The notes beneath the pieces are model-generated. The model saw only the letters and a program-made list of their open reading frames with translations, made no database searches and was not told the DNA's origin. Of a DNA stretch of 64,000 nt, positions 5,953 to 43,882 are shown one piece after another. The first letter of the stretch is position 1. Each line of letters starts with the position of its first letter. The stretch lies in NCBI GenBank assembly GCA_903813345.2, contig CAIIXF020000008.1, forward strand, positions 33,506,867 to 33,570,866. The letters run 5' to 3'. This DNA is from Owenia fusiformis (lineage: Eukaryota; Annelida; Polychaeta; Sabellida; Oweniidae). Both the position numbers and the translations under genes were made by a program.

Positions 5953-5963
5953 GTTTAAGGTTT

Positions 5964-6170
5964 ATGGAATTGGATGTTCCTTTTATCATATTGGTCTTGG
6001 GTGGAATATTATTTGTAATTATATGCTTTATGATCGTCATATGTTCCCGTGTGTGTATGAGAATAAGGGACGAAGAAGCCTCCGTTTCATCAGTTCAAAT
6101 ACCACCTACAACAGTTCCTGGTTTAGAATCTACCCTAGGCTTCAGCATGAACACTATGAATTTTGTGTAA
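5964..6170 (+). CDS. Small single-pass membrane protein ORF (copy 1), hypothetical
   Basis: ATG at 5964 opens a 68-residue frame. Residues about 5-28 are a strong hydrophobic segment (VPFIILVLGGILFVIICFMI), followed by a basic Arg-rich stop-transfer and a Ser/Pro/Thr tail. It could be a free-standing micropeptide or the last exon of a membrane protein whose ectodomain is the upstream FGDF repeat; the two frames differ, so a splice or shift would be needed. I do not recognise a family. An identical copy lies at 11139-11345. Confidence 0.35.
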   Translation: MELDVPFIILVLGGILFVIICFMIVICSRVCMRIRDEEASVSSVQIPPTTVPGLESTLGFSMNTMNFV

Positions 6171-8604: not shown

Positions 8605-8608
8605 CATA

Positions 8609-9969
8609 TCTACAGAGGAGACGTTCCAGGATTTAGCAGATGAACCAGCGAGATATTTTTACTTTGGTGATTTCGCATCATTAAAGTTAAGATATACATC
8701 TACAGAGAAGAAGTTCCAGGACTTAGCAGATTAACCAGCGAGATATTTTTACTTTGGTGATTTCGCATCATTAAAGTTAAAATATACATCTACAGAGGAG
8801 ACGTTCCAGGATTTAGCAGATGAACCAGCGAGATATTTTTACTTTGGTGATTTCGCATCATTAAAGTTAAAATATACATCTACAGAGGAGACGTTCCAGG
8901 ATTTAGCAGATTAACCAGCGAGATATTTTTACTTTGGTGATTTCGCATCATTAACGTTAGAATATACATCTACAGAGAGGAAGTTCTTGGACTTAGCAGT
9001 TTATTCAACGAGATATTTTTACTTTGGTGATTTCGCATCATTAAAGTTAAGATATACATCTACAGAGAGGAAGTTCCAGGACTTAGCAGTTTATTCAACG
9101 AGATATTTTTACTTTGGTGATTTCGCATCATTAAAGTTAGAATATACATCTACAGAGAGGAAGTTCTTGGACTTAGCAGTTTATTCAACGAGATATTTTT
9201 ACTTTGGTGATTTCGCATCATTAAAGTTAAGATATACATCTACAGAGAGGAAGTTCCAGGACTTAGCAGATTATCCAGCGAGATATTTTTACTTTGGTGA
9301 TTTCGCATCATTAAAGTTAAAATATACATCTACAGAGGAGACGTTCCAGGATTTAGCAGATGAACCAGCGAGATATTTTTACTTTGGTGATTTCGCATCA
9401 TTAAAGTTAAGATATACATCTACAGAGAAGAAGTTCCAGGACTTAGCAGATTAACCAGCGAGATATTTTTACTTTGGTGATTTCGCATCATTAAAGTTAA
9501 AATATACATCTACAGAGGAGACGTTCCAGGATTTAGCATATGAACCAGCGAGATATTTTTACTTTGGTGATTTCGCATCATTAAAGTTAAGATATACATC
9601 TACAGAGAAGAAGTTCCAGGACTTAGCAGATTAACCAGCGAGATATTTTTACTTTGGTGATTTCGCATCATTAAAGTTAAAATATACATCTACAGAGGAG
9701 ACGTTCCAGGATTTAGCAGATTAACCAGCGAGATATTTTTACTTTGGTGATTTCGCATCATTAACGTTAGAATATACATCTACAGAGAGGAAGTTCTTGG
9801 ACTTAGCAGTTTATTCAACGAGATATTTTTACTTTGGTGATTTCGCATCATTAAAGTTAAAATATACATCTACAGAGAAGACGTTCCAGGACTTAGCAGA
9901 TTATCCAACGAGATATTTTTACTTTGGTGATTTCGCATCATTAAAGTTAAGATATACATCTACAGAGAG
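8609..9969 (+). repeat. 90-bp tandem array, about 15 units (array 2)
   Basis: Same 90-bp unit as the first array. From 8896 on it copies array 1 at +5175. It begins mid-unit at the duplication junction (8601-8615) and has one unit more or fewer than array 1 near its left edge. The in-frame TAA variant again interrupts the 30-residue reading. Confidence 0.95.
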
Positions 9970-10553
9970 AAGACAATATAGGAGAATTCAGATTCCAGAG
10001 AATCATTGACTTATCATTGAAGTTAGAATATACCACAACACAAAGAAGAGGTTCAGGAGATGACAGCATAATTGAATATTTTGCATCCTTGAAGATTGAA
10101 TATACATCTACCCAAGATTGGTAAACTGGGACTTAGTTATTTTTGAGGGTTATTTTTGAGGAAGAAATCATTTTTCTTTGTCAGTTTGATGTGAATGATA
10201 ACTGGAACTTAGAATATTTCTACATTTATTCAAGAAACTTGGACTAAGTTATTTTTGAGGAAGAAATGATTTTACTTTGTCATTTTGAAGTGAAAGATAA
10301 CTGGGACTTAGAATGTCTTTACTTTTCGAGAATAGCAGAACTTAGTCATTTTTAAGGGAGAAATAATTTGACTTTGACACTTTGTGAAGTATAACTGACT
10401 TAGAATATTTTTATACACTTGCATTTAATGTTTTGAGTTAGTTTTGTAGAACATTAATCTGAAGAAGACATCTGAAGTTGGAGACTTGGCTGATTTGCAG
10501 TTTGAGCTGACAGTGACAACTACCAGAGAAGATACAAGTCAGCAGATTACAAA

Positions 10554-11055
10554 GCCTGTTGTTTTGACTTTGGTGATTTCACATCACTGAAGTTTAAACA
10601 TACACCAGTTGGAGAACCAGAGCCGAGGATACAGGACTTAGGAGTTTTACAGAGCCTGTTGTTTTGACTTTGGTGATTTCATATCACTGAAGTTTAAACA
10701 TACACAAGTTGGAGAACCAGAGCAGAGGATACAGGACTTAGGAGTTTACAGAGCCTGTTGTTTTGACTTTGGTGATTTCACATCACTGAAGTTTAAACAT
10801 ACATCCGTTGAAGAACCAGAGCCGAGGATACAGGACTTAGGAGTTTACAGAGCCTGTTGTTTTGACTTTGGTGATTTCACATCACTGAAGTTTAAACATA
10901 CACCAGTTGGAGAACCAGAGCCGAGGATACAGGACTTAGGAGTTTACAGAGCCTGTTGTTTTGATTTTGGTGATTTCACATCACGGAAGTTTAAACAGAC
11001 ACCAGTTGGAGAACCAGAGCCGAGGATACAGGACTTAGAAGTTTACAAAGCCCGT
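10554..11055 (+). repeat. 99-bp tandem repeat, five units (copy 2)
   Basis: Exact counterpart at +5175 of the repeat at 5379-5880, including the one-base insertion that breaks the frame after the first unit and the open frame 10642-11127. Confidence 0.93.
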
Positions 11056-11138
11056 TGTTTTGTTTTGATACAAGTGTATCGCTCAAGGGCATCAGTGTTT
11101 GAGAGCAAGACCCAAGACAGTTGCTGAGTTTAAGGTTT

Positions 11139-17875: not shown

Positions 17876-18055
17876 TGTAAGATTTCACCTAGCTCTTGAC
17901 CTTTGACCTAGATAAGAATTTGACCTAATTTCCCAGAAAGCCGGATACAGTCTTTAGTTAACCTTGTAAGTTGGATTAAGGAAGATGTTATAGTTGGAGA
18001 GAAAATCTGTCAGGAGGGAGAAAGAAAGAAAGAAAGAAAGAATGAAAAAGAATAA
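17876..18055 (+). repeat. Resumed AT-rich repeat and GAAA microsatellite
   Basis: The text around TTTCCCAGAAAGCCGGATACAG matches 13970-14060, with a second perfect DR1 at 17897-17909. It runs into a GAAA-type microsatellite at about 18020-18045. Confidence 0.75.
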
Positions 18056-18059
18056 TAAG

Positions 18060-18218
18060 AAAACAGGCAAAAACAATAGACTCCAGATTTTCAATCTGGA
18101 GTCTAATAAAAATAATAATAAGAAAACAGGCAAAAACAATAGACTCCAGATTTCATCTGGAGTCTAATAAAGAAAACAGGCAAAAACAATAGACTCCATA
18201 TTTTCAATCTGGAGTCTA
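18060..18218 (+). repeat. Three tandem perfect or near-perfect hairpins
   Basis: AAACAGGCAAAAACAA followed by a 12-bp stem (TAGACTCCAGAT / ATCTGGAGTCTA) recurs three times. Hairpins are at 18077-18105, 18140-18166 and 18190-18218, with loops of 3-5 bases; the third has one mismatch in its stem. The stem word ACTCCAGATTTC is also part of the AT-rich repeat leader (near 7459, 12634, 14107). They end about 200 bp before the dehydrogenase start codon. Confidence 0.9.
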
Positions 18219-18416
18219 ATTATTAATAAAGTTAATGAAAAATAAATAATATATAGACAAGAAGGATGTTTGTATTTGCTTTGTGATGTATTTCAACATA
18301 TCAGACATATGACAAATTGGTTTCATATATTTATGTATAATACATATAATTTATATGATTTAAGATACGTATTTCTGTTCATGCTCTCATAACCGTTTAA
18401 AAGCTTGGGCAAGGCT

Positions 18417-21400
18417 ATGATGAGTGCCTTCGTTTTCCTATTGTTATGTTTCGCATCTTGCCATGCGGGAAAACCTGAAATTGAGGAAATGAACAAGAAA
18501 TGCAATGGGATGCAACATTACGAGATACAGAAAGGTGATCGAATGTGGAAAATGTGCAATTCTGTGAGTAATCTGTAGTTTCATCATAAATCAGATAATG
18601 TTTGTTATTTCTTTTGCGTTATCTAAAAAGACAAAAGCAGCATATGCAAGTTGGAAATCCTATTTTGATCATCTTATATAAGTATCTAATATGATAATGG
18701 TATTCTAAATGGATTTAACATTGCTTTCTATGCTTTAGTACTAAACTATATTATCAAATCTGCATGCCGTACTTAGCTATGGTATGAACATGGACTACCC
18801 CTTAACTTGAGTTACTAACCAAATGAAAAAAGTAATCTTTATTTTTTCAGGAAAACTATTGTTATTTAAACGATATCATTAATATTTAGGTTAAAGATGA
18901 TTATCAAGCGAGATACGGTCGCCTTGGTCAATGGAATTGTAAATTATATGTCAAAAGTGGTGATGCTTACACTATAAAGGTAACACGTATATAAGACGTG
19001 TGCTTGTTCTGTTGGTATTAGCGCATAATTTTAAATTGAAATTAAGCCGATGCAAATCTACTTATAGTAATGAGATATCAAAAAAATTGTTTTCTAGTTT
19101 GGAAATCATAAGTCAATCTGGTATCCGTTAATCTTGACCTTAACTTTGGAACCAGAATACTCATTTTATCATGAATGCCACCATTTTATATAAAACTATT
19201 TCCTAACTCAATCCTACAAAATAATTCACTAGGTCAAAATTATAACTATGAAGAAACGAAGAATGTTCATCCACATTTTGATTGACCACGAAGGCAATTT
19301 GATTGGAGAACAAAAAGGACCATTTAGGAGAGACACGTGTATCAGTTTGAGTGGTACGTGTAGCCTTTTGATTTATAAACACGTTGATATATTTACAAAA
19401 GTACTTTTATTGATTTTGAAAATTATTTATCGTCTTCGTTTTTCTTGTTAGAATATTGGGAGAACTACGGAAATCCCGTTGGCGGCACTCGCTACTCGCC
19501 TTTACTCGACATTAATGTTAACAACGTCAAAAAACTGAAGTTAGCTTGGACTTACCGATATGGAACAGGCCACGAGAGATATGAAGCTGAAAAGTTTAAT
19601 TTAGACGACCAATCAACTCCAATTATGGTGGAAGACGGCTCGAAACATAGTAAAATACTTTCCATTATTGTGAATAAAATGGAGTCTATAAAGTTGAATA
19701 TGGCATTGATTGACTAATTGGTTCATAAGATTTATATTAGCCTATATTGAAGGTTGACAGGTCATTTGTCAATAATATGCCTCAAATATCTTGTCATGCT
19801 AAAATTATTATCTAATCATAAGTGGACGCGGATCGGTAAAAATGGTAGAGATTAAAAGGTGGATTGGATCGAGTGGATTGGATTCATGTAAAAGGTGGAT
19901 TGGATCGGGAATCTTCAAAATGTGGGATTTCTTATAAAAAAAATTCCGTTGATCTCCCTCTAAACAATTTCTCTCTACAGTATTACAGGTCCCTTTTGAG
20001 AAATCAGAACAAAGTAATGACAAATGCATACTCCAATTAGTTCATGGACACTCTTAAGTATTTAACCGCTTTCCCTTGTAAATCAACTTTTGTAAGACAT
20101 AGATCTTTAGAAAAAGAAAACCTGTCATTCAAATTGATGTGTGAATGTTCACAAAACATTTCTGGTATGTTCAGTTTGGATTGAAAACAGATGATATGGA
20201 TCTTCAAACCAGTCTGCCTTATGATTTATGAAATGTCTCAAATTACACTTGGAATGAATAAGATCGTGTATCAGAAAGCGGGTACCAGGTCATCCTCCTA
20301 GCCCACCTAAGCAAAATAATATTACATCTATTATTTGACATTGTGCAAGTGTAGAGAGCACTAATCTTCCTAAAGGGAGATCAATAGAATTTTTTAAAGG
20401 AAAAACCATATTTTGAAGATAGCCAATCCAATCCACCTTTTACATGAATCCAATCCACTCGATCCAATCCACCTTTTAATCTTTACCGTAAAAATAGCCA
20501 CAGTGTAGAACTGAAAGTGTATCCTCACTACATACAGGGTGCTTCATATGTATGCACCCCATCTAAAATTATGTATGAAGCATTGCCACCCTATTATGTT
20601 ATATACCATTTTGTTCCTCATAGAAGGTTACATAAAAGTGCAAAGTTTCAGGATCCAGGGTTGCCCTTGAAAAAAGATACAATGTACCAAAGTATGTGGG
20701 TACGGGGTTATTAGGGGCAATTTCTGGTCATTTTGAGGGCAATTTAAAGGACAATTTTTTTTTTTTTTTTAAAATCAAATGTAACATATTTGCAGGTTTA
20801 AGTGGCTACAACTTCCATGAGGGACTATTAGGTGCCACATAATGGTATCAGGGTGGTCAAAAAAACGGCAACCCTAGTTTTTCCTAATATCTTTGTCATT
20901 CTAGGAAATAACTCCCTGATATTTTACACATTTGTACATCATTCAATTTCCTACCAACCTACCATATTTCATGACCACCAGACTGATAGTCACACTATTA
21001 CTGCATTTTAAGCAACATACCCCAGATGGCCACTTTCGAGCTGTCTGAGCTGGCCTGATATCCAAATGAACTCCATTTCCAACTTGATTCACTGGTAAAC
21101 TCTAACAATTATGTATTCTTGGGGAGCCAAGCACTTTATGAAGTAGTGGAAAGCCACCTTCACACAAACAGGTGCACAGTTTAGTGTGTCCTCAGAAGAT
21201 AGGGTCCTTTACCTTTGAGGATGCTAACGGATATGCAATAACTGTCAACATCAAACTCTATTTTGTGATTCCCATGGAGTTCTTGGGGACTTTAGGTGAA
21301 CCCAGGGGGTTAAAAGGCAGCAACAGTGGTTCCAACAGGAAGGAACCATACCACATACACCAAATGATGCACAATAATGTCTTTGGGACCACTTCAATGA

Positions 21401-24400
21401 CCACATTATCAGGAATATAACAGACAATGAATGGGCACCCCATAGCCCAGATATTGCCCCATTTAATCTTTACCAGTGGGGATACCCCAAAGATAGACTG
21501 TAGAGTAATAACACAAGAAAGACATTTGACTTTAAAATAGAGATCACATGTGTCATTCAGGCCATACTTGCTGAGGAATGCTGTTATGTCATTGACAGGT
21601 TTGGAAAACATGTGCAGGTTTGCCTACAGCACGATATTGGAAAACTGGGGCACCTTGTTTAAAGTGCTGTAACATTGCGACTACCAGTCCAATGTTCATG
21701 AAATGATACAGTCTAGTATGAAATTGAATGATGTACATGTGTGCAAAATATCAGGGCAAAATTTCCAAAAATGACAAAGATATGAGGAAAAATTAGGTTG
21801 CAGTTTTTTTTTGACCACCCTGTATTTACAATGATTTATAAATATTATAAAAAGTGTACATGTAATTTCTTGTACATAATTGAGAAAATAAAGTGATTTA
21901 ATGAAAATGATTAAAGGTCTCTTCTACAATAACGGGTGCAACAATAAAATGTGTAGAGTAAGAGAAAATATAATATCAAAATTTAGTTCCTGTATTGCAC
22001 ATTTCTAGCAATTGTCATCCTGAAAGAGTTGTCGGGTAGTTGTTCACAAAGAATATATAGAGACTGGATTCATGTCAGTGGCTTATAAGAAGGTCAGAGG
22101 CCATGGAAAAGCTTTATTACAAAGAATTGGTAACGGACAAACTAAACAGATCGCCATACTGGGTCCAAAATTGCTTACAAAATTGCTTATAAATTACAGC
22201 GCACCAGCATACTTTTTGATACATTGTTTCTTTTTTCAGGGACGCCCTTTGATTTTGAAATTTTGCAATCTTATGTAACTTTTCATGAGATACACAAATC
22301 AGAGTTTGATAATGTCAATTTAAGTAATTTCCGGGGGTACAACTCGCTTCGCCCGCAGTGATGCAAACCAAAAAACCCCGCACCCTTCCTCCCCATTGAA
22401 AATTGCTGGCTACGCCCACGATGCTCTTTACCTATTCTTCCAACTACTTTATCTAGGAAACGATGTATTGATATCCTGTACTCCTTTGCGGGAAATGTAT
22501 GCTCTAGACCCATCAACTGGTGTCGAGATTTGGAGAAACAGCGATGGGATAACTCCATATATTAAAGATTCAGGGAGGTAATTTTAATAAAATGGTCGGT
22601 TTATCGATATATCAACGCCAAATTAATTTTTGAGGATAGAGAGGTCTGGGATATACCTATTTGAACAATCAGTAGGCTAATGCAGCCATTTTGAATTCCC
22701 TATACTAATGATGGGGAAGTAAGGGTTGACAATCGATATACAGGGTCTCTAGTTACGCTTCACACATACTTTGTATTATGATTGTCTAATAAACGTACCC
22801 ATTGTGTTCTTTTCTATTTTTGCCGACAATATGTTTAAATTGCAATTGCCATTTCTTCTTATGTCACGTGATATCATTCCAAAATTTTGATTGGTTATTT
22901 TTAAATGTGTACGGAGATGGATACAACAGAAAAGATTCGAAAAGCTATAGAATTAAATTGATACTTAGTACATTGATGATATTCTTATAGATTGACTTGT
23001 CGGGGAGTCGCAACATGGTTAGACCCACTGAAGAAGCGTGGTTCATTGTGCAAACGTAGCATATATTTGCCTACGGTAGACCATAGGCTGATAGCAGTTG
23101 ATGCAGCAACTGGAAAACGCTGCACTAACTTTGGTGTTGAGGTAAAGGCATTTGTCGTTACGACTACGACTAAATTGTAACATATCGTTTAGTTTAAGAT
23201 TATGAGTTGAAGAAATTGGTTGTACAGGGTGTCAAATAAGTCTGTTCTCCCCCCTTAACTTTTTATCATTAAATTTATCATACTTTCCCATTTATCATTT
23301 TGAAGCTTATGGAAAATGCTGATCACCCTCAAAAAATCAATCATAAACTCCTCCTAATAAAATTGCTACAATGTTTCTTGTAAGGTTGTAGTTTACCTTT
23401 GATTACATCAAAACAAGTAATATTACCAGGTAATAGTGATTGAAAAATGAAAATGATACTGCGGTGACAATGCCAACATTGGGTGATTTCTATGTTTCTC
23501 AATATCGTTACAGAGTAAATTGTGTTACATTCAGGGGAGCTTTTGAAGCAGGGGCATCTTTCATCACAAAATAGTTGATAACAGCCAAAATAAAACGTTC
23601 TGTATGATTTTAACGGAATCATACCCTTGTAGAATTGAGGCCATCCGGGCTGCTGGGGGAGACATACAGACTATTAAAAAAGTGAAATATGGACATCACT
23701 AAAAATACTCTAAAAATTGGGGAATTTAACCAATCACTCTGAAATTTGGTGTGTGATCAGCAAATTGAATTCCCTAAGATGGTATATACCAACCTTATGT
23801 TATTTCTGAAATTAAAAAGTTAAGGGGGAGAACAGACTTATTTGACACCCTGTAATCTACCGTTGACTCGATGGGTTACCCTTATTCACTTACCAGGGGA
23901 ACAAGTGTTAATCCCAGTGACCATTCGTTAAGTCTTCTCACAAAAATTATACTGTACACTATACTGTTGATAGATTGTTGACATTGCAAGGGTCTATTGA
24001 TATTTTTTAATACCGTTCACATTTTATAGGGCTTTGTCGATTTAAAAGTTGCTAGTCCTGATGTACATTGTCTGACGTATATGTACGCACCTGCAGTTGT
24101 GATGGAAACACTAATTCTTGGGCAAAGTAAGTTGATGTTAAATTCTTGTTGCGTCATATTTTTAATTTTTAGTTTCCTTATTTTTAATTCATGTAATTTG
24201 TTATGCCGATATATCAATATTGTGTGAATGCAAAGTATTGCCAATGCCGATACTACGAAACTACTAATTCTTGTGGTTACCAGAGCATTTTTATTTTACC
24301 TGTTTGTGCAATTTAATTAGTTACTTCAAAAACGTCAGGAGAAGTGTATGTACCATTTTGGCTTATAATGTAGTCTTACCCAATCATTATAAAATGTGAC

Positions 24401-27400
24401 ATAAGCAATAATCTACACACCACCGATGGTTAGCGTGCATCATCCAAAGTGGGTCGGATAAAGTCATTTTAAAACTCTCAGTTTTTATTACTAGTTTAAA
24501 TTATAAGTTATTGAATGCTTTGAGGTGCAATACAGGATATATTCTGCTTGAGAAATTCTGTATTGGAACGAGACGAAGTCGAGTGCCAATACAGAATATC
24601 GAGATAGAATATATTATGTATTGCACTTCAGATCATTCAATAACGTTTTTATCGTGTGATCCTCTGTATTTCTACTGAGATTGTCCCCTCCGTACCAATA
24701 TTTTTCTGTATTGCGACGGAGATGATCAATTGGGACAATCTCAGTAGCAATACAGATTGGTACAGCACAAGAACTGACCAATCAGAAGGCTTCATTTCAC
24801 AGAGCATATCATACGATAATAATATTTATTAATTTGCCAATCACTTTTTAAACAGTGGCACAATGGAAAAATGCCAATGTGGTATTACATACAACAAATA
24901 ACATCATTGACATAAAATACAAAAAAAGATAAGTAAAATATTATGTTCAGTTGTACAAGTGGTTTGACTTTAACATATTGTTATTAATAGTCAATAAACA
25001 TTGTTTACCACTCCTGTCAAATAAGCAGCCTTGTAGTACCTTACCCCCATATCACACCAAACTAGTTCTTACCCGTTCTTGCCAGTCCTACGAAAACGTC
25101 GTCAAACGGGCTCAATCTGGCTGTGGTCGGGAAATATGTCTGAAATAATTAGCTTCTTCGTTCTTAAACAGTCTTCAATACGTCCATCTCGTTTGCAGTT
25201 CGTTCAGGTCGCACCATGTCGGAGTGCAACGTCGTAGAACGCGTCCCTTAGTCTAGAAGGTCAACATGACCTGATTACAGAACGGTATGGTCGTCATCGA
25301 ATTTTGAATCGATTCAAAATTCTAAAATCACATTCCCGTCTGAAAACGTTCATAAAGTTCGTAAATAGACCTTAGAAAGTTGCAGCTACGTTCATTCCGT
25401 TCGCACACAGTTTAAAACCAGTTTTGAAGAACGCAGTGGCAACTTGTTTAGTGTGATAGCTATATTTTTGCTAACTCGTTCATAAGCAGTGTTAAATACG
25501 TTCTTAATCAGTTTAAACCCGTTTCAAATTAGTTCTACCTCGTTCTAAACACGTCCGCAGACAGTTCAACTCGTTATTAAAACGTCCCTAGTAGGATTGA
25601 ACTACGACGGTTCCGTTCGTAGTAAGTCCAGCTCGTCGTTAGTACGTTGTCACTCGTTCTAATTGTAGAACGTGACGACCACGAGAACATTTTGAGCATT
25701 GTCTAAGTTCTAGAGGACCTACCCGTTCGAGTACGTTCGATGAAGTTTGTAAATAGATCCCAAACGGTTCTTAGTAGGTCCAGTCCGTTCGTATACAGTT
25801 GAAGCCCGTTTTCGAGAACGCAGTGAGAACTAGTTTGGTGTGATAGTAGGGTTAACAACTTTATTTACAATGCATGCATCTTATAATTGAAGGAATATCG
25901 GATGATTGTGGATCCGATGCTCCTAAAGGGCTTGCCCCAGCCTTTCATGCAAGGACCGGGAAGTTTATGTGGAAGTTTATGATTATTCCAACTGATCCAG
26001 ACGACCCTGCTATGAAAACGTACCGTAATGGCACCAAATACGTGGGATCAGGCAATGCGTGGGCTCCTTTAAGTGGCGACAACGAGCTCGGTGTGAAATA
26101 TTTTTTCTTCAAGTCTTTCAATGTAAAAATAGTTACGAAGCACAACAAGATAAATCGATACAGTACTTTAATTTTTAAAAAAGTATCATTTATATTATAG
26201 GTGTTCCCTCACATTGAAGTTTCAAGCTCAAAGATATTTGAGTTAAATTTTGTTCCTCATCTGTGTTTGCTATGTACAAAATGAATGTCTATTTGTATTG
26301 TTGTTAGGTTTGGTTTACATGGCAACGAGTTCAGCTAATCTTGACCACATGGGAACTCATAGAATTGGTGACAATCACTACTGCGACTCAGTTGTTGCTT
26401 TGAATGCCACCGATGGGAAACTAGTCTGGTTCAGGCAACTTGTACACCATGATGTGTTTGACTATGTAAGTTGAACACCATGATTTTTTAACTTTTGTTT
26501 GTCATATCATGTATCTGCCTATGTAAGTTGTGCACGGCATTGTGTAATTGACCACATAAGTTGTACACTTTTCAGTGCTTTTGAGGTGCACACTGATTAT
26601 ATTGGTATTAGGGTTACATTGCTTCCTTCTTAAGAATTTTTCAAAAAAGTTTCGTAACGAAGCATTTTGTGTGCGTGTAACACCTCACTCCTTCATATTG
26701 TCTTACAAAGATTTTTTGTCAAAATACTTCATAACGAAGCAATGAGTAATTCATATGAATAACAACTGTGATTTGCAATTATTCACCTCTATTCCAAGAC
26801 TTTCAAATTTTCTTAAAAAGGTATCAAACAACCGCATCACTAGTATCCCTACTCCGGACTATATTCATAGAAGAAGCTTTGAATAGTATTCAGTGATTGG
26901 TTTTGTGTCGTTTCGTCGATTTTATTCTTTTTTATATCTTGACATACCTCTCAAACCTATCTTGCTAAAATTTGTAATAATATTTGAAGTTCCTTTTAAA
27001 TGTCTAATGTAAATTGTTTTCTCTTTCAAGGATTTAAATAATCAGCCTGTCATTGGCGAAATCACACGTCGCGGCAAAAGACAGAAGGTGGTTTTGCAGG
27101 TAACCAAGGACCATAACCAGAAATTTCATAAAGTTAAGAACTCCTAAATTTCTTGTTGTAACCATGGATATAAAGTCGCCATGGTAATAGCACAATTTAG
27201 CTGAGAATACCTTACTGTACTGAAGTTTCTGATGATGGCACCTTGATTATATTAGTATTCTTACCAACTCCAATGCTACTCCTGTATGTTTATGTGCAAA
27301 AACAGTACCGAAGAATTTAAAATTTTCTAACTCATGTCAGGTCAGTATAGGTACGTATGTACATGTAAGTAATTTATAAGTAAGTATTGTTCAGAATAAA

Positions 27401-30400
27401 AATGAATTTATAATATAAATGATAGTTATTTAGTTCATTCAATGTGAATTTTGCTATGAAAGTTTGATGATCTATCAAATGGGTGAACAACTACAGAGCT
27501 CCAAATGGGCAGATCCAAAATCACCTTCGAATCAATAGGGACCAATGATTCCATGTTTGTGTATTGCAAAACCCAGGCAGTGCATTTTTCAGAATGCAAT
27601 GGATGCTGGATCACGTCTTCGGGAGGATGTAATTATAAGCCCCAGTAGCAGCTGAAATAAACTTGTCCATTCAAAAAGAAATGTGTGTAGAAGGGTCATC
27701 AACAACTTCGTGCGCCAGATTCCATTGTGCATAGAGAGGATAAGTGCCCACTTTGAGCATGTTTTGTAAAGTGCTGTAATTTTTGACTCAATGGGCAGAT
27801 TACCATCAAACTTTCGCAACAAGTTCACATTGAATGGACTAAATAATTCTGACATTTTAAGGCAGAATATGCAAAATTGACCTAGTAACTATTCTTCGGT
27901 CCTGTTTTTTTAACTCTGTGGTTATATCATATGTATATTTCATTGTATCAAGGGAGTGTGGTGGAAATCTTCTCGGTCGGTGATAAAATATCCTTAAGTA
28001 TTACTATATTTCTGTACGTTTAGTCGTATTTTGATGATTTGACACATCAGATATTGATGTTGCAGTAGATGGACAGCAGTTTTCACGATGTAGCCTATGT
28101 GTAATTGCAGGGCACTAAAATGGGATTCCTGTTCGTATTAAATGCTGAAACTGGTGATCCAGTATTTGGTATTAAAGAACATCCAGTGCCATCTATTTCA
28201 GAAGTATGTATTGCGTTTGTTTGTTGATTTGATCAAGGTTTTTTGAGATTCAATCTTTGCATTTTCTCCCGGTGTAGCAGAAGTACAGTTGATGAGAAAC
28301 TAAATTATTTCAAACGGGCATAAACTTAAAGTCGCTTAGCAAGTGATCTAAATGTTTTTGATACATATTCCTGCCAAGGAGAAGTTCGGCAGAATTCTCT
28401 TACCTTTCTAGAAAGGCAGGCTTTGTCCCCTAATTCTAGGGATAAACGGGGAATTCTCAATTTAAGTTGAGTATTTATTTTCAGATAATTTACCACAGAA
28501 ATTCCCTGTTCTCCACTACACAACTTTTGATGACATCACATTAAAGGGGAATTCACTCTCAGTTAAAATTTATGTTAGACTTACCAAATTAATATTCATA
28601 TTATGAGACTAAGGGACATTGCCATGTTAGCCAAAACCAATGGCAGGAAAGGGAGGATCTAGAGTCCATGAGAAAAGCAAATACACTGCTACAAGCTACC
28701 TAGTTTTTGCGATAACATGACTCGAATTAGAAATCACAGATTAACTGCTTCAGGAATTTCCCTTTCTCTCTTTTTGCCAGATAAAATCAGGTATTTACAA
28801 CACATCTGGGCCTTCCTGTACATGTATTTATTTGCCCAGTGATTGATTTAGTAACTCATTTAGGGAGAAATAGTTCCACATAATATTTGCTAAGCAGCTT
28901 TAAGATCATGGAATTGTGATTCTGAATGCCCTATAACACATCTGGGCCTTCCTGTACATGTACAGGGTGTTAAAAAAACGCAACCCAAGGAAATCGCTTT
29001 ATCTTGGAAAATACTCATTCAATTATGTTCATATTTTCAGGAAAGAAAGAAGAGACTATGTATGTATAGCCCCTGATGTTAATTAGTTGCAAAACATGAT
29101 GTCTTGGACACTTGCTCAAAAGACAGTTGTACTAGCAAAATACGAAAAACGCAAATGGAAAATCACTATATCTTGGAAAATACTAATTCAATTCATTTCA
29201 TTTTTTCAGGAAAAGAAATAAGAGACTCCGTATGTATAGCTTCTATTGTCATGAAGTTGTAAAACATGATGCCTTGGACACCTGCTCAAATGACAGTTGT
29301 TCTAGGAAAATAAGAAAACGCAGTCAGAATGCGAAAATATGGAAATCAAAATCACTCCAGGGACTTCACAGTCATGGTCAAAATGGCTTCTTAAGTCTCC
29401 CTGAACCAGGGCGTTTCACTGCGATTTGAAAGCATTTCAACCATGACTGTAAAGTCCCTGGAGTGATTTTGATTTCACTTTACGGATTTACCATACAGTG
29501 AATGAAGATAACTTGTGCCAAATTTGAAGAGCCAAAACACTATGGTTGGAAAGTTATTTAGTTTTTTTGAGGTTGCAGTCACCCCTGACTGCGTTTTTCG
29601 TATTTTCCTAGTACAACTGTCTTTTGAGCAAGTGTCCAAGGCATCATGTTTTACAACTAACCATTTACAGGAGCTATACATACACAGTCTCTTCTTTATT
29701 TCCTGAAAATATGAACATAATTGAACCAGTATTTGTCAAGATATAGCGATTTCTTTGGGTTGCATTTTTTGAACACCCTGTATTTATTTGCCCAGTGATT
29801 GATTTAGTAACTCATTTAGGGAGAAATAGGTCCAGTAACATTTTGCTAAGCAACTTTAATATCATGCTGAATGCCAGGCAGTTTCTACTCTAGTTTTTGA
29901 ATGACAGGTATCGGAATTTTATAAATGGGTTGCATTATAGAATCACGCCCGGTGATCGTGAATATGGGACGGAGGGGGGGAGCAGGCAATTTCTGCTAGG
30001 AAATTCGACAAATCTGGAAGATTTGTTTTTTCAAGAAAAAGTTTACTATTGAATTGCTAAATGGATAGGCGCACGGTATGGTAGAATATGTTAGGTTTTC
30101 TGGGATTTTTTCTGAAACGATACGCATCTAAGGTATGAGATCTATTAAAAAAGGCGCAAGGCCATCAACAGGCACAAATCAACGTTTTTGCTATAAATCA
30201 AGCAACAATGGTCTGGACGACCTGTAATAAATACTTGTAAGTGATGTTATCATAACTAAATTAATGTCATTGCTGAATTTATAAAATAAGTTTCCATATG
30301 TGAAATAAAAAATAATCGAAAATTATGAATTTGGGACGGAGGGGGGAGGGGACGGAGGGGGGGAGCAATATGTATATAAGACATGATTAAAGATGTTTCG

Positions 30401-33400
30401 CGACTTTAAGTCCTTTTACTCCAAATGTCCTCATTTTTCAGTCTCCAGGGGTATATCATCCAGTTTCTTACTAAGTTAATGAGTTCATTTTTCAAATACA
30501 AGAATTCGTGTGACGTTGTTTCACTTTATAGAATTATAACTCCCCCCCCCTCCGTCCCCTACCCCCCCCCCCCCCCCCCTCCGTCCCATTTTAATTATTT
30601 TCGATAATTTTTTATTTTACGTATGGAAACTTATTTTATAAATTCAGCAATGACATTAATTTAGTTATGATAACATCACTTACAAGTATTTATTACAGGT
30701 CGTGTAGTCCATTGTTGCTTGATTTATAGCAAAAACTTTGACTTTGCACGTTGGTTGCGTTGCGCCTTTTTTAATAGATCTTATATCTTAAAAGAGTATC
30801 GGTTGAAAAATAATCCTAGAATACCTAACATATTTTATCATACCGTGCGCTTATTCAATTTGCAATTCAATCGTAAACTCTGTCTTAAAAAAATAATTTT
30901 ACCAGATTTGTTGAATTTTCTAGCGGAAATTGCCTGCTCCCCCCCCCCCCCTCCGTCCCATTTTCACGATCACCGGGCGTGAGAATAACAATTAGCATAT
31001 GTGAATAGCACTTCACCAGCTCTCATTGCGCAAACATAAAAATATTGCTCTTGCAATGAAATTATGACATCGAAATACCTAAAAAATATGAAAACGTGGA
31101 AATTTGGGAAAATAAAACAACGATTGTCTTTAAGCACCCATTATATTTATTTGAACAATAGAATTTATTTCATATTGTAAAAATCTTAACAAATGTGAAG
31201 CCTATTTCTTGAAAGACTAAAGAAATTAAAAAGAATAAACTTAGACGTACATGTACCTGATATCACACGTTAGGGTCCAAAATCTTCTCTCAACATATAT
31301 TGGGCAATCTGGGCAACATTACCGGGTATTATTTTTTTAATTTTGGGCTTTTTTCTCGGAAATTGGGCTCAAGATTTGTACATTTTTCATTATTATTGCA
31401 TTGGTATTCTTTCAGAGCGTGCTGACTTTCGTTATATTGAATTGTGTGTAATTATATTCCTTGAGAAGATCACTCTTGTTAAACTTGGGTACATGTAGTT
31501 TGTAGTAGTTGTTACCAGGATTAAGATAAACCATTGGATGTAGTTACGTGATTCTGTTTATGAAGGTACACTCCCCTCCATAAGTTTGGCAACCTTTTTT
31601 CACCATTGAACTACGTGTTAAATCCTCTTTACGTTTGAATTTTTATTTATTTAACCGGCGATGAAATAACTTATAATATTGGTGGTAACGTAACTTGACT
31701 TTATTTCCAATACTTCCAAATTTTCTCAATTTTTTTCCTCAGTTACAATAGGTCGATAATTGATGATAAATTTGATGAATTTTTGAAAATCGTCATCCCC
31801 ATGTAATCCAATGGGAAATGGAGGGTTCGGGGCAAATCAGAAATCAGGATATTTTTTCAGTAAAAGATTCAGCAAAAAATATTTTTATATAGAAAATTGA
31901 ATTGTCTAACTTTTTTTAACACTAAGTGTTTAGTTTATTTGATGAATCTTAAAGTTACAGCGCTTCAAACTCATAATTCAGAGTAATTTTTCGCCTCCTG
32001 TGTTATTTCAACGGGAGAGGTTTTTTGAAAAACAATTTTGACTTTAAAGCCCTATAACTTTGTTGAACCTGAAGAAACATATCAATTTTATGTTAAATAA
32101 AGTTAGCAAATTCAATTGCCTGCCTAACTCGTATTTTTTGCAAGGACTCGAATGGATGGGTATTCTGTCATATGACTTGCGGCAAACCTACCATTTCCCA
32201 TTGGTTAACATGGGAATGTCGATTTTCAAAAATTCATCAAATTCATCATCAATTTTCGACCTATCGTAATTGAGAAAAAAAATTGAGAAAATTTGGAGGT
32301 ATTGGAATTAAAGTCAAATTACGTTTTCATCAATAGTATAAGTATTTTCATCGCAGGTTAAGTAAATAAAAATTCAAAGGTAAAGAGGCTTTAACACGTA
32401 GTTCAATGGGGGAGCTAAGGTTGCCAAACTTATGGAGGGGAGTGTAGATGTATTCAATTATACTTAATTGGTGCATTGTATTTCCCAGATTCTGTTTCAA
32501 TTTTAGGATCGGTTATTAGTAAATATGCACAGTGGAGTACTATTTTTATTCAAAGCTATGGAGTACTGTTTATTGAATATTCATTGAATATATATTTTAA
32601 AAGATGACCTCATAAAGTGACGCATACAAAATAACCCCTTCCTATTATTGCTTCCCGTTAGCTACCAGGGGAGATCATAAGTCCAACACAGCCCTTCCCT
32701 GTTGATGACTTCTTAAGATTAGCAAAGGAGACAGTGGACATGCGACCTGGGAAGGACTTATGGGGAAGAACGCCTGCTGATGAAGAAGCTTGTATTGAAT
32801 ACATGAACAATTCTGGAATCGATCCAATTGGGGAGGTTTGTCTTAGGTTTGACATAAAGGTTGACATGTTATATATTGGTCACTCTGCTAGTGATTGTCA
32901 TTCACCTCTTGCCGTAATACACTTTACATATCAACCCAGGCCCCTTTCGTGAAGACCAAGGCCTTAATATAGTTGACATGGCAACCAAGGAAATGAGAGG
33001 AAAAATAACCAAATCCACTATATAATAACATCAATTTTAATTATTCCAGGATACTTTTCATTAATGTTTATATCACTTAGAACACTCTTTTTCTAAAGAT
33101 GAGTTTAAATTTACCACAAATAATTATTATTTTTAGGAGTGGCCAAAGTAAAACTCGAAAATGTCATTATTCTAAAACGTAAAATTCCAGAGCTAAATCT
33201 GTTCTTCAGACAATCTTTGATAGGTTTTCATTACCACAGAACAGGGATCTTTCCACTGGTATCCCCAATTCCATGAGATGATACACGTGAAAGGGGAACT
33301 ATGTAATAGTGTTTAAATATAGTCAAAACACGTTATGCTAAAAACGTAAAAGGGCTATTTTTGCACTGCTCTTGATGAAAAGATTTCTGTGGTTCAAGAT

Positions 33401-34654
33401 TTCGTTATGTTACATTCGAATTTTGCTGATCTGCTTGTAACAATGATACATAAGAATGATTAATTTAAGTTAAGCAAATCTAATCCATTTCTCAATTTTC
33501 AGATATTTATGCCAGCGCGTTTTAGTAAAGCCTCGCTATGGGTCCCAGGGGTCCTTGGTGGTATGATTTTTGGTGGAGGTGTGGCGTTGGACCCCACAAG
33601 AAGTATTGCCGTGGCAGCAACACAAAATGATTATTGGAGTAAACATATTAAAATTTTATAGAAAAACATATGTATTTTAGTGATACATATTTTCGATACA
33701 ATGCTAATATATTTCTTCTGCACCAACTTTAGGTGATATATTTGATCGGTAACACACATCGTCGTCAATACGTAGCGTTTGGATTTTGTCGACATTTTAC
33801 TTCATTAATCTAAAATTTTAAATTGAAAGTTGATTGCTTTCTGATTAAAACTTAATTATCAGATCATCAGTCCATGCCTATCTTAAATATCTGTTTCATT
33901 TAGTTCACCAGTTGTTTCACAAAAACAACACGTCACCGCTGTCACCATGGTGTAAAATTTTCATGTACAATGACAGCATCACCATCCCATATGCCGATTG
34001 CTATGGTTTCTCGAATACCTTACAAAAATGTAATAAACCCCCATGGGCCATGTTGCATGCCATTGACTTAAATAATGGCCGTAAGCTTTGGACCGTTCCC
34101 AATGGTTTGGAATTTGACCCCAATGATCCATCAAACGAAGAGAGACGAAGGTAAATAATCCTACACTTACATTTTCATATGCGGTAATATTGGTATGTTT
34201 GGTTTGGCGTTATCTGAAAATGTCATGTGGCATAAGTTTTTCCCTGTTATGATAATATTCTACATATAGCATACATCAGAACTGAGATACAGGCCTTCGA
34301 CGTTTGTCTCTAAACTTTTCGCGATCCTTTTCTTTTTGGTAAGATTGCTTCAAAATGACATGTTTTATGACCTTTTCAAGTTGGTCTTCTGGAGGCATAC
34401 TTCTAACTGGAGGGGGATTAGTAATAGCTGGTAATACAGATGATCGCTACCTTCGGGCATTTAACATCGACACAGGAGAATTACTTTATCAATCACAAGA
34501 ACCAATGATTGCTATGGCTGTTGGGAACCCTATAACGTACAGGACCAGTGGAAAACAATATATTGTCATTACCGCAAGCGGCTACAAATTGCAAGGATTA
34601 TATCCAGAAGAGGCGAGAAGTGATCATGTTTACGCATTTGCATTATTAGCATGA
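18417..34654 (+). CDS. Secreted PQQ-dependent dehydrogenase, 15 exons, 757 aa
   Basis: Exons: 18417-18563, 18890-18979, 19233-19353, 19452-19649, 22457-22577, 22991-23141, 24030-24126, 25893-26090, 26308-26465, 27031-27099, 28111-28203, 32662-32835, 33503-33638, 33904-34150, 34381-34654. Every junction is GT-AG and every phase agrees, giving 757 codons plus TGA. Residues 1-17 are a signal peptide; 18-119 a four-Cys domain (C29, C47, C66, C115) I do not recognise; 120-757 an eight-bladed quinoprotein propeller. Blade motifs include ALDPSTGVEIW, AFHARTGKFMW, ALNATDGKLVW, AIDLNNGRKLW and AFNIDTGELLY. TCRGV, VHHDVFDYD, GTKMGFLFVLN and SPTQPF are typical of the glucose/quinate/shikimate group of membrane quinoproteins. 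D426 and K453 match the catalytic Asp and PQQ-binding Lys. No CXXCH heme site is seen. Substrate unknown; an extracellular sugar or alcohol oxidase is inferred. Confidence 0.9.
19834..20488. mobile_element. Inverted-repeat element (about 655 bp) in dehydrogenase intron 4
   Basis: Arms of about 115 bp face each other: 19834-19960 and 20370-20488. Each arm has three GGTGGATTGGAT words separated by GGATTCATGTAAAA and extends to GATCTCCC. The middle has no frame. A target duplication is not clear. Confidence 0.8.
20849..21822. mobile_element. Mariner-family element with decayed transposase, intron 4
   Basis: Ends CAGGGTGGTCAAAAAAA and TTTTTTTGACCACCCTG form inverted repeats that extend for about 100 bases (GAATGATGTAC and AATTTCC words on both sides). 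Read on the + strand, 21320-21620 gives transposase-like text: WFQQEGTIPHTPND, WAPHSPDIAPFNLYQWGYP, corresponding to the second and third catalytic-Asp blocks of Tc1/mariner enzymes. In-frame stops break it, so it is dead. A separate end-like word CAGGGTGCTTCATATG at about 20535 may be a truncated neighbour. Confidence 0.8.
23225..23852. mobile_element. Mariner-type MITE, family A copy 1, intron 6
   Basis: CAGGGTGTCAAATAAGTCTG at the left and CAGACTTATTTGACACCCTG at the right, with TA on both sides (23223-23224 and 23853-23854). The inverted repeat continues through a GGGGGAGAAC/GTTCTCCCCC stretch and TTAACTTTTT. A second copy lies at 46458-47069. No transposase is recognisable. Confidence 0.88.
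24505..24770. repeat. Nested palindromes in intron 7
   Basis: A foldback at about 24509-24645 pairs TTATTGAATG with CATTCAATAA and GGTGCAATAC with GTATTGCACTTC; its centre pairs TTCTGTATTGG with CCAATACAGAA. A second small foldback at about 24678-24765 pairs GAGATTGTCCC with GGGACAATCTC. No frame. Confidence 0.75.
25050..25845. mobile_element. Inverted-repeat element with CGTTC-rich interior, intron 7
   Basis: Ends TATCACACCAAACTAGTTCT (25050-25069) and its complement (about 25826-25845). A third, internal end-like word (TTGTTTAGTGTGATA) sits near 25445. The 800-bp interior has many GTTC/GTTCGT words and a base composition unlike the AT-rich introns. No transposase frame. The element ends about 45 bp before exon 8. 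Confidence 0.7.
27303..27904. mobile_element. Mariner-family remnant in intron 10
   Basis: Short inverted ends CAGTACCGAAGAAT and ATTCTTCGGTCCTG. On the + strand at about 27675-27765 the text INNFVRQIP...ISAHFEHVL followed by TAA resembles the extreme C terminus of mariner transposases. The rest of the transposase is lost. Confidence 0.65.
28797..28962 (+). repeat. Host repeat pair, one copy empty and one with an insertion
   Basis: ACATCTGGGCCTTCCTGTAC begins at about 28801 and again at 28938. The first copy runs straight on as ATGTATTTATTTGCCC. The second is split by the mariner element 28963-29780 and resumes at 29781 with the same text, through TTAGTAACTCATTTAGGGAG and beyond. Confidence 0.9.
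28963..29780. mobile_element. Mariner-type foldback element, intron 11
   Basis: CAGGGTGTTAAAAAAACGCA at the left pairs with TGCATTTTTTGAACACCCTG at the right; TA is duplicated (28961-28962, 29781-29782). The inverted arms extend over about 200 bases each, with an inner foldback (CCAGGGACTT...AAGTCCCTGG, about 29357-29461). An empty paralogous site 28801-28850 confirms the borders. No intact transposase. Confidence 0.92.
29944..30981. mobile_element. Long foldback element with G-tract arms, intron 11
   Basis: CACGCCCGGTGATCGTGAA at 29944 is mirrored by TTCACGATCACCGGGCGTG at 30963-30981. AGAAT flanks both ends (29939-29943, 30982-30986), a 5-bp target duplication. Each arm is over 400 bp and holds GGGACGGAGGGGGG runs and C13 or longer tracts. 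No transposase. The Pro-rich frames here are products of the C tracts. Confidence 0.88.
31569..32444. mobile_element. Tc1/mariner-type foldback MITE, intron 11
   Basis: CACTCCCCTCCATAAGTTTG begins at 31569 and its complement ends at 32444; TA flanks both sides. The arms cover almost the whole element, including ATTTCCCATTGG words around the centre. No frame of note. Confidence 0.9.
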
Positions 34655-40112: not shown

Positions 40113-42901
40113 AATAATATCTTACATAATATATTCTTCCTTTTGACCTGATTAGACAAACAACATTGGTTTATGCATATTTGATTGACAAATTTTACAT
40201 AAGAATAATTCCAGTTGAAAGAACACTGCAAAACTATTCATCACAAATACAAGAGGTTGATTGAAATACATATGTTAGACTGTTTATCGATGACCAACGG
40301 CATTCTGATACTCTTAGCATCTTTCTGTTTCACCTGAAACATCTCAGGGCAGAGAAGAAATAAGACATTTTGTTGGTTTAGTTTAAATTCCAATAATGGA
40401 AAAACCTTGCGTAATAATTTATAATGAACTGATGACACTGTGTTTCTGCATACGCGATTTACCTCCAGCTCCCATCAACTGGCAACACTGCCCTTTGACC
40501 ACATATCGAACAGTCACTTTTTGGATATAGACAAGATCAAAGAATTGTCTCAATTTTAAAACAAATCAGTCTTACGCTTGTCAGTGTTAACGAGGATGTA
40601 ATTGCTTTCACCTTCTGACTTCATTTGAGTCATATTTTAACTTTTTTTAATTATTCAGAAAAAAAGATTTCAGAAACGTTTAATAGACGGTGATGTCTTT
40701 CGACATTTTTCGATTGGATGTGTTTGAATTATGTCACGAAGTCGTATGCGATATATACCTCTCCTAAGCTATTCTGTGCCCATTTAAGTTTGACTCGCCT
40801 ATTTAACTTTGTTTCGCCTATTCTTGAACCCTGAACTTATTTTCCATACTTTGAGCTTTGTCCATTGCACAGTGCACAATTTTAGCAATAGAGCAATATT
40901 CTTCAAATAAATTGTTTTCAGTTAGTCTTAGACTCAATAATTGAGTCAAGTTCCCATTGATTTTTAAAATGAAAGTTCGTAACTTTTTAATGACCTTATC
41001 ATTGAAACATTTATTCTGCCTGGGCGTAGCCAATATCAAAGAGACGAGGCGATTGTAAACATGAGAAGCAGAACCAAGAGCAAATGAGAATATTTTACTC
41101 ACAGCAATACTCGAAGAAATTAACGTTTCGAAATTTGTTTTTGGCATGGCAGTTGCATCGGCTGCCTCAAAGCCAAAGTGTACCTACCCTTGAGCAAGGA
41201 GTGATATAAATACAAACACGATTTGATAATTTGATACAACTTGGGAAACATAATATGCACAAAATAACAACCAAATCAAATGCAAGTCTTTTTTTATCGT
41301 CTGCATCAGATTTTGGCCATGAATGATCAAACAATCAAACATGACCGTGGTCTTTGAATATTTCTCAGCCAATCAGATTGCATGTGGCCGTTCTCAATTT
41401 CTCTAAACATCAGACCACCCGGGAATGGCCAATCCTTATGCAGTAATATATTGTGTGACATCACTTCCTATTGGTTCTTTTGAATAAATAAATGTTCTTT
41501 ATTTTGATTTTTGAAACTCTGGACACAGTGTTAGTACAAACATCCTCTCTGTTGGTGTTACTTCTGCAATCAAACTTGAGCTCACTGTTAGCCTATCAAC
41601 CTGGGCCTGTTTTCCAACAAACTTGGTTAAACTATTACGATACCATTAACTCCGAGTTATAATTTCTACGGCGACCCTGCGGCCTGTAATCTGCATTCGC
41701 CGTACGGAGGCCGCAAGGCGAGCGTAGTTTTTCTACGCTCGCCGCAGAAATTCACCGATTTAATTGATCTGCGGTCGACTTGCGGCCGCCGTGCGACAAA
41801 TGTGACTGGGGTGTTAGATACAGAAAAATAATCTGTGATGAATATATTGTTATTGTATAATGCCATGCATGTAAATCCTATGACAAAACGTTCTTACTCG
41901 AGTACTTTCAATATTTCTTGATGATTTTTTATGTTTTTTCTTTATCTCATTTTCGACTCGATTAAAAAGAATCATCAGAGCTCGTCAAGAGTATTCGATC
42001 TCAAACAGATTCTCATGCAGAACCTCTTCATAAAACAAGAGTTCATATGATAAACTCAAAGTTATTGAAAATAACTTTCAAAGAACATATAGAGATCTTA
42101 AATTTATAAACAGACTTACAAAAGACATGCAAATTAAAGCAATTACACAGTACTAAAATACTTAAAGTTAAAATAACACTAGCAATAACAACAGAAACCA
42201 GTAACCGTAAACCTATATTACCAATTCTACAAAAAAATGTGCGAAATGTTTAATATTTGATCTTGAATTGAATAAAATATCTCGAGCAAACAGCATTTTA
42301 AATCGAATTGAAGTAAACGTAAATGGCATCGCAAATGGATTAGACCTTTGCTGAGAGAGGCTAAATAAATATTGTCCATAGTGGAATATCTTAAATGAAT
42401 ATCTAAAAAAAGGACATTGGCCTATGTCAATAATATTGAATCCTTTCCATGGTGAAATGCATAATGCAAAATAACTCGAATTTACTTTTAACGATCAATA
42501 AGGAATATGATTATGATGGAGTCACATACAGAAAAAGATTTGAATTAATTTTTTCGCTCATACGACATAAGTTTATAGACAAACCTTAAATAGAATATAC
42601 AGAAATACAGAAAGTGTGTATTATATTTGACAATCTGTATTTATTTGACATTTGCATCTATGATCAATCGTATGGAACCAATTTTTTCGTCATTTAAAAG
42701 TTACATTTTAGTAAATCATTTGCAAATGATTGGAAATTAGCTCGGGACAATTTGGAAAATAGTTCAACCAAGCCGAAGGATTTTTGCCGATACATTTACA
42801 CAGCAAACAAAACCAGATACCCACTTTCTTTATCCTGACCTCAGTTTGTCTAGAGATTTTCAGTTTATTTGTTCCGCTTTTGTTAAACGTGATATCTACC
42901 T
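40113..42901. other. Intergenic, no gene seen
   Basis: The frames here are short and unrecognised. A GC-rich patch at 41668-41800 contains a perfect hairpin (GGCGAGCGTAG, T5 loop, CTACGCTCGCC; 41717-41743) amid CGGCCGC words, in otherwise AT-rich DNA. It may be the core of a small GC-rich element like the ends of the one at 15392-17801. Confidence 0.55.
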
Positions 42902-43882
42902 ATGATGTTGTGTTTGAGATACATAGCATCCAGGTGTACTCAGTTAAGACAGCAACACACGAAAACGCTGAGCGAAGTTCCAATCAACATGAATCGTACA
43001 AGCCAACGTATGCATTTGAAGGAAGCGCCAAACACTTGGCAGACTTTTACCGGCCAGAAATCTGATGATAGTTTCACAATGAGCCCAACAAACACGGAGG
43101 TATCAATATACACGGAGCCGTTGTGTATTTTGTTGACGTGGTTCATGGCGAGGCCCCGTCACGTGGAGAAATACAAACACATGTACGAATCTCGAGGATT
43201 CACCGTCAAGGAGGTGAAGTTCGGCATTTTAGGCGCTGTCTGGCCGATGAGCACGATGTCCAACGCAAAAACGCTTCTCGAAGAGCTGATTAGCGAACAC
43301 AAAGGTCGCCCTTTGGTGTTTCATATTTTCTCTGCGGGACTCGTCACTCACCAAAGTATCTCACGTTTAATCAAACAATCGTCTCGTTATGAAGAGATAA
43401 AAGACCGCATTTGTGGACAGGTGTTCGATAGCCCAAATATAGGTGGCGCAGATGTATACACATCGGCAATGGTCCCGGGGATAACTTCCAACGTCTTCTT
43501 ACAATATTTTCTCCTCTTCATTTACAAATCATACGCCTTGCTGACATACAAGTGGACGGTGAGATTTTTAAACACTGGTATCAAAATGATAGAATCTAAC
43601 CCGTTCCAAGGACCAGTTCTATTTTATTATTCTTTGAACGACAAAGCCACCTGTAAAAAAACATTGGGCGAGCTAATTGATAACTGGAAATTGATAAAAA
43701 ATGGCGACGTGTTGGTGAAAATGTGGGAAGATTCGCCACATGTGCAGCACCTTCGGAGTAACCCGGACGACTATATCCGATTCTTTGATAGTTATTTTGC
43801 GAAGGTTGTTAACTTCCATGCGAAGAAGGTTGGACTACGAACTTTCGGCCCAAAGAAGATTGAAACACTCATGTACGGATAG
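42902..43882 (+). CDS. TMEM53-like protein, DUF829 family
   Basis: A 326-residue frame in one exon, ATG at 42902 to TAG. Residues about 70-320 carry DUF829/TMEM53 marks: EPLCILLTWFMARPRHVEKY near 71-90, FHIFSAG at the nucleophile-elbow position, GQVFDSPN, VLFYYSLND and EDSPHVQHL. The fold is alpha/beta-hydrolase-like; vertebrate TMEM53 is a nuclear-envelope protein, but enzyme activity is not established for the family. The first 25 residues are Arg-rich without acidic residues and could be a mitochondrial presequence, or the exon may really start at a 3' splice site and the N terminus be different. Similarity to the pseudogene at 39951 begins only at the TKTLSEV region, which leaves the start open. 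Confidence 0.8.
   Translation: MMLCLRYIASRCTQLRQQHTKTLSEVPINMNRTSQRMHLKEAPNTWQTFTGQKSDDSFTMSPTNTEVSIYTEPLCILLTWFMARPRHVEKYKHMYESRGFTVKEVKFGILGAVWPMSTMSNAKTLLEELISEHKGRPLVFHIFSAGLVTHQSISRLIKQSSRYEEIKDRICGQVFDSPNIGGADVYTSAMVPGITSNVFLQYFLLFIYKSYALLTYKWTVRFLNTGIKMIESNPFQGPVLFYYSLNDKATCKKTLGELIDNWKLIKNGDVLVKMWEDSPHVQHLRSNPDDYIRFFDSYFAKVVNFHAKKVGLRTFGPKKIETLMYG

Follow-up and report, generated by a model that had tools for sequence, protein, structure and literature searches.

Whether any animal enzyme needs PQQ is an old dispute, and we know of no animal that synthesises this cofactor. The window analysed here, i.e. the whole stretch of 64,000 nucleotides from the annelid Owenia fusiformis, contains a gene of the PQQ-dehydrogenase type. 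It raises the question of where such a gene came from and whether its product could still be an enzyme that uses PQQ.

The gene was rebuilt from its splice signals. On the + strand, between 18417 and 34654, 15 exons are spliced in phase into 2274 nt (757 codons and a stop), and GT-AG borders are found at 14/14 introns, so that the fifteen exons, single frame and 757 codons described in an earlier note on this DNA are borne out. The features of the gene and two other reading frames of the window are the following:

18417..18563, + strand: exon 1, signal-peptide-like start MMSAFVFLLLCFASCHAG, then the first part of the orphan N-terminal region
18890..18979, + strand: exon 2, orphan N-terminal region
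19233..19353, + strand: exon 3, orphan N-terminal region
19452..19649, + strand: exon 4, beginning of the quinoprotein propeller; R155 = Gcd R201
19650..22456, + strand: intron 4, 2807 bp, containing transposon-like inverted repeats
22457..22577, + strand: exon 5, propeller
22991..23141, + strand: exon 6, propeller; TCRG motif
24030..24126, + strand: exon 7, propeller; M294 in the probable MxaF Thr159 column (T in 77/85 rows)
25893..26090, + strand: exon 8, D312 (25901-25903; metal-ligand column, Gcd D354), N363 and W365 (26060-26062; Gcd W404)
26308..26465, + strand: exon 9, HHDVFDY including D426 of the catalytic column (26460-26462)
27031..27099, + strand: exon 10, opening with D428, the +2 Asp (XoxF lanthanide-ligand column)
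28111..28203, + strand: exon 11, GTKMG including K453 (28117-28119; Gcd K493, XoxF Arg354 column)
28204..32661, + strand: intron 11, 4458 bp, containing several long inverted repeats
32662..32835, + strand: exon 12, PTQPFP motif
33503..33638, + strand: exon 13, I561-F562 replacing N-W; A578 in the Gcd N607 column
33904..34150, + strand: exon 14, propeller; C601 and C617 (0/85 other rows)
34381..34654, + strand: exon 15, last part; D688 (Gcd D730), Y735 (Gcd H775) and stop
42893-43882, + strand: intronless DUF829 reading frame
58719-59423, - strand: C2H2 zinc-finger reading frame

The DYD catalytic motif is interrupted by an intron: D426 and Y427 close exon 9 (26460-26465) and D428 begins exon 10 (27031-27033). 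A database search showed that the rebuilt protein is identical to a deposited 757-residue "unnamed protein product [Owenia fusiformis]" (P0001), located on a 39-Mb contig and automatically named pyrrolo-quinoline quinone repeat protein in UniRef. Thus the gene was already present in the public annotation. By tblastn against the window, two other Owenia proteins (P0003 and P0002) together match exons 4-15 (12/12): P0003 matches 11 of them, exon 7 missing, and P0002 matches ten, 6-15. For exons 1-3 no homologue was found, and only the identical gene model of the public annotation supports them. When the window was searched with P0002, P0003, P0004, P0005 and the E. coli membrane glucose dehydrogenase (Gcd), the matches were exons 4-15 and no second gene copy was found.

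Repeats are present both within and outside the gene. The part of intron 11 from 28961 to 32409 holds several long inverted repeats resembling inserted foldback elements, four of them with arms of 188-249 nt that are 83-90% complementary. A 63-bp tandem repeat in 3 copies (18045-18220) ends about 200 bp upstream of the start codon. Further upstream, the region 2725-11127 contains frames with the same translation lying 5175 bp apart (3740-4279 and 8915-9454; 5467-5952 and 10642-11127), together with 90-bp and 99-bp tandem arrays; a Pfam QueF match in this region is probably due to chance. A glutamine-rich reading frame (55469-56287) has no Pfam match at E up to 0.01, and no Rfam match at gathering score was obtained anywhere in the window.

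P0001 is a PQQ-type propeller protein, as had been proposed. It matches PF01011 (glucose/ethanol/alcohol dehydrogenase propeller) well above chance, with E 1.7e-169 and 565.8 bits (cut-off 26.7) from position 1 to 595 of a profile of 595; its predicted fold is that of the eight-bladed quinoproteins. The closest named subfamily is TIGR03074, the membrane-bound glucose/quinate/shikimate family, the curated score of which is missed (410.2 vs a cut-off of 832.65 bits). Soluble relatives also miss this cut-off (P0005, P0006 and P0016 with 777.4, 698.6 and 667.0 respectively), while Gcd scores 1194.5. The match of P0001 starts at profile position 154 of 783, i.e. the N-terminal membrane part of TIGR03074 is absent. 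The curated scores of the methanol/ethanol family TIGR03075 (193.2 vs 480.05 bits) and of the acido-empty-quinoprotein group A TIGR04528 (187.7 vs 650 bits) are missed as well. Neither a haem c domain nor an electron-acceptor domain was found in P0001.

Gcd, translated from NC_000913, was aligned with the four Owenia proteins and 55 others; residue counts are those of an alignment of the 4 Owenia and 85 other rows. The motifs and numbers previously read from the DNA are exact: HHDVFDYD starts at 421 and GTKMG at 451, and the Gcd alignment puts D426 on D466 and K453 on K493, which are 27 residues apart as the earlier note had stated. This spacing is a family rule (84/85 non-Owenia rows, the remaining row having 23). 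P0001 has the catalytic Asp and the Lys/Arg partner of PQQ-dependent dehydrogenases, D and K being found in 85/85 other rows. Likewise R155, D312, N363, W365, D428 and D688 correspond to Gcd R201, D354, N402, W404, D468 and D730, and the columns of D312, N363, W365, D426, D428 and K453 are invariant in 85/85 other rows. By alignment to the XoxF 6dam profile, D426, D428 and K453 lie opposite D327, D329 and R354; excerpts of PMC8028316 give the two Asp as metal ligands and the Arg as their second-shell partner. Since D428 keeps the XoxF lanthanide-ligand column, a rare-earth-bound form may be possible, although this Asp is common to 85/85 other rows and Gcd.

The statement that active-site residues are retained is correct for D426, K453, D312, W365, N363, D428 and D688 but not for six other columns: those of the probable PQQ-contact Thr (M), Trp 562 (F) and Gcd N607 (A), and those of Gcd T424 (N), H775 (Y) and H262 (R). 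The Thr column corresponds probably to MxaF Thr159; it was placed 18 residues before the metal-ligand Asp (in MxaF, counted from Glu177) and by the 6dam alignment, MxaF itself being absent from the alignments. It is T in 77/85 rows and M/H/L/L in P0001/P0003/P0002/P0004. According to excerpts of PMC8028316, Thr159 of MxaF bonds PQQ and its counterpart in XoxF is not listed as a contact; because another contact, Gly196, is listed for XoxF, Thr159 is no universal PQQ contact. Column 562 (Gcd W592) is W in 85/85 rows and, in the same order of Owenia copies, F/L/I/L, and column 578 (Gcd N607) is N in 55/85 rows and A/S/A/A. Among the putative PQQ-contact columns of P0001, W365 is kept and these three are changed. 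Among the metal-binding columns D312 is kept, the Gcd N355 column is D, and column 385 (Gcd T424), S in 82/85 rows, is N/S/N/N. Column 735 (Gcd H775) is H in 75/85 and Y in 9/85 rows, with Y/H/N/N in Owenia. Column 561 is N in 68/85 rows and in the other three Owenia copies, and I in P0001 alone. At the Gcd H262 column P0001 has R226, and G is found in 27/55 rows. Gcd positions 426 (D) and 776 (G) correspond to D387 and K736; positions 275, 307, 343, 591, 609, 742 and 771 were likewise mapped. The S308 column (S in 82/85 rows, Q in Owenia), a candidate for MxaF Ser174, was left out of the count because the 6dam alignment shifts it by one position. As far as the alignments go, the catalytic pair of P0001 is intact and the surroundings of the cofactor are partly changed, some of the changes being present in all four copies.

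The gene is one of several in Owenia. P0002, P0003 and P0004 are 66, 55 and 66% identical to P0001 over the aligned parts. P0002 (535 residues) and P0004 (463 residues) are both on a 36.7-Mb contig, with models that begin within the propeller, and P0003 (668 residues) is on a 40.8-Mb contig. P0002 is without the catalytic Asp, the D466 column being S and the D468 column G in this copy, and by its sequence is a natural, catalytically altered sister copy. Columns conserved in at least 90% of the 85 rows are kept at 116/148 positions by P0001, 118/148 by P0003, 97/131 by P0002 and 84/115 by P0004; P0001 keeps 34/231 of the columns conserved in less than 50%. Such a retention suits the same kind of constraint as that acting on the bacterial proteins.

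Secretion of P0001, proposed in the earlier note, appears likely: its N-terminus is hydrophobic and followed by six N-glycosylation sequons in the protein, no membrane part was found in it, and it has cysteines peculiar to Owenia. C400, C601 and C617 are present in all four Owenia copies and C314 in three, all with 0/85 in the other rows; C290 is present in all three Owenia copies covering that column and in 7/85 other rows. Between the signal peptide and the propeller lie about 100 residues with four cysteines (within residues 1-118, window 18417-19353), absent from P0003. Residues 1-118 have no relative at E up to 10 (9 candidate sequences compared) and no Pfam family at E up to 10, and their predicted model is mostly below pLDDT 50. 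A weak match of the N-terminal region to PRK14125 (NCBIfam, E 0.21) is not believed.

Two trees bear on the origin of the family. The quick tree was built from 102 rows, namely the 4 Owenia proteins and Gcd, 80 loci of named genome records and 17 database proteins; the Owenia proteins form a single clade in it (SH-aLRT 100, stem 1.44). In the careful tree, made of 59 chosen rows and rooted on Gcd, the Owenia clade (100/100, stem 1.85) is nested among bacterial rows with a support of 97/95, a placement within bacterial sequences of the kind expected from horizontal transfer, Owenia being the sole eukaryote in both trees. The Pseudomonadota neighbourhood of the clade receives only 84/72, and its long stem adjoins different bacterial groups in the two trees; the placement has to be read with this stem and with the unusual residue make-up of P0001 and P0003. 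The nesting, the long stem and the diverged paralogues agree with the ancient bacterial acquisition previously proposed, and one transfer followed by duplication would be the simplest account. The intron count by itself gives no date for the transfer.

Could the gene instead have been inherited vertically, from a quinoprotein of eukaryotic ancestors that Owenia retained and almost all other animals lost? The 14 introns and the orphan region fit a long stay in animals, and the same origin with loss in animals is argued, in excerpts of PMC13384848, for a propeller protein of T. cruzi. But Owenia is nested in bacterial rows (97/95, in trees made without other eukaryotes), and no other named eukaryote is found among the best 120 of 1,534 and the best 120 of 1,786 matches, two overlapping sets in which many rows carry no species label; we regard vertical inheritance as quite improbable. 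Bacterial contamination or a chimeric gene model, to which exons 1-3 without homologue might point, is close to refuted. All 14 introns have GT-AG borders, and two contain long inverted repeats. The contig of P0001 measures 39 Mb and those of its paralogues 36.7 and 40.8 Mb, the non-Owenia matches listed are only 35-40% identical, and DUF829 and C2H2 zinc-finger reading frames lie in the same window. That this is an animal gene, as the earlier note held, is well founded on the introns, these neighbouring frames and the contig.

The reading towards which we lean, with a confidence slightly above even, is that Owenia horizontally acquired a soluble eight-bladed bacterial quinoprotein dehydrogenase, which is now secreted and uses environmental PQQ. 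The donor gene would have been a relative of the membrane glucose dehydrogenase without its membrane part, transferred into the Owenia lineage. There it would have acquired introns, new cysteines and an animal-type signal for secretion, and its copies would have increased in number. The product would be a soluble secreted protein because neither haem nor membrane part was found. By analogy with the quinoprotein family, the substrate, a sugar, polyol or alcohol, would be bound above the cofactor and would lose a proton to D426 acting as general base. The cofactor would accept the electrons, polarised by the metal ion and by K453 beside its carbonyl, while D312 would contribute to the binding of Ca2+ or a similar ion, with W365 stacked on the cofactor. 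A small diffusible acceptor would reoxidise the reduced cofactor, and PQQ would be supplied from outside by food, sediment or microbes, in line with the scavenging active enzyme suggested by the earlier note. What the sequences themselves show is the gene, its predicted fold and relationship, the kept and altered residues and the multiplication; secretion, PQQ use, catalysis and the roles of residues, substrate and acceptor are inferred. In a stricter version, the protein is a PQQ-dependent secreted eight-bladed enzyme of bacterial descent with a remodelled pocket, and PQQ a true environmental vitamin for the worm; this we hold only tentatively, at somewhat less than an even chance.

The propeller scaffold might also have been kept and the PQQ chemistry not. 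The protein would then be a secreted binding protein that recognises sugars or microbes, or else an enzyme using a different cofactor, Asp and Lys being there by history or structure. This alternative is a real one because the pocket is changed and one copy is without the Asp: all four Owenia copies carry other residues at the probable PQQ-contact Thr, at Trp 562 and in the N607 column, and P0002 has lost the D466 and D468 columns (S, G). The added N-terminal region without known relatives and the absence, to our knowledge, of PQQ synthesis in animals are also in its favour. Nevertheless P0001, P0003 and P0004 all keep D426, D428, K453, D312, N363 and W365, a set that a mere scaffold would not need, and on balance we find the alternative less likely than not. 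Under the preferred reading, that of an acquired PQQ-using dehydrogenase, the Owenia family is a concrete candidate for a PQQ-needing animal enzyme with intact catalytic residues. If true, the eight-bladed quinoprotein joins the bacterial oxidoreductases domesticated by animals, and the PQQ-using family also includes a sister copy without the catalytic Asp. Owenia is, from paper titles, a worm of developmental work, and its four copies offer a built-in comparison through their differences in the catalytic Asp and the Gcd H775 column.

The nearest known systems are soluble bacterial quinoprotein glucose or PQQ-dependent dehydrogenases (P0005, P0006, P0029 and kin), 36-40% identical over about 84% of P0001. 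They share with it the propeller family, the D-K pair and the lack of a membrane part before the propeller. They differ in having continuous reading frames and no orphan N-terminal region; C314, C400, C601 and C617 are found in 0/85 of them, and they keep the Thr (77/85) and the Trp (85/85) lost in Owenia. E. coli Gcd (TIGR03074) is matched at D466, K493, W404, N402, D354, R201 and D730, whereas H262, T424, W592, N607 and H775 differ and the match of P0001 starts behind the N-terminal part of Gcd. Compared with quinohaemoprotein and methanol/ethanol dehydrogenases (1kv9, 1kb0, 8gy2, XoxF 6dam, MxaF 1w6s), P0001 is without the adjacent-cysteine pair, and a haem c domain was not found in it.

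Among eukaryotes, the earlier view that well-characterised enzymes are bacterial or fungal has to be extended by two cases, both taken from excerpts: a T. cruzi protein for which six nine-bladed propellers are predicted and which has an activity in vitro that depends on PQQ (PMC13384848), and the two GDH genes that centipedes acquired from bacteria, which are likened to PQQ-sugar dehydrogenase and have their expression in the venom gland, the gut and the leg (PMC9151784). The fungal pyranose dehydrogenase CcPDH, assigned to AA12 by the title of PMC4332668, is, as proposed for P0001, a secreted eukaryotic PQQ enzyme for which the source of PQQ is a question, but excerpts of PMC4133262 and PMC13384848 describe it as six-bladed, with cytochrome b and cellulose-binding domains. 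In the open-access literature on PQQ in annelids, on horizontal transfer in Owenia and on PQQ across metazoans or eukaryotes, the Owenia gene is unreported among the matches listed, the centipede paper PMC9151784 being the only one on point for PQQ and annelids; PMC7864903 does not mention GDH, glucose dehydrogenase or PQQ, nor do excerpts of PMC10192322 mention PQQ or quinoprotein. The centipede genes resemble those of Owenia as PQQ-type glucose dehydrogenase genes transferred into an animal, so that, on the excerpts of PMC9151784, an animal quinoprotein gene of bacterial descent was already known. The centipede protein differs in being likely six-bladed, as deduced from the soluble GDH structure cited there and not from sequence comparison. 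What is new here is an annelid family of eight-bladed quinoproteins that has multiplied and has an orphan region and an altered pocket.
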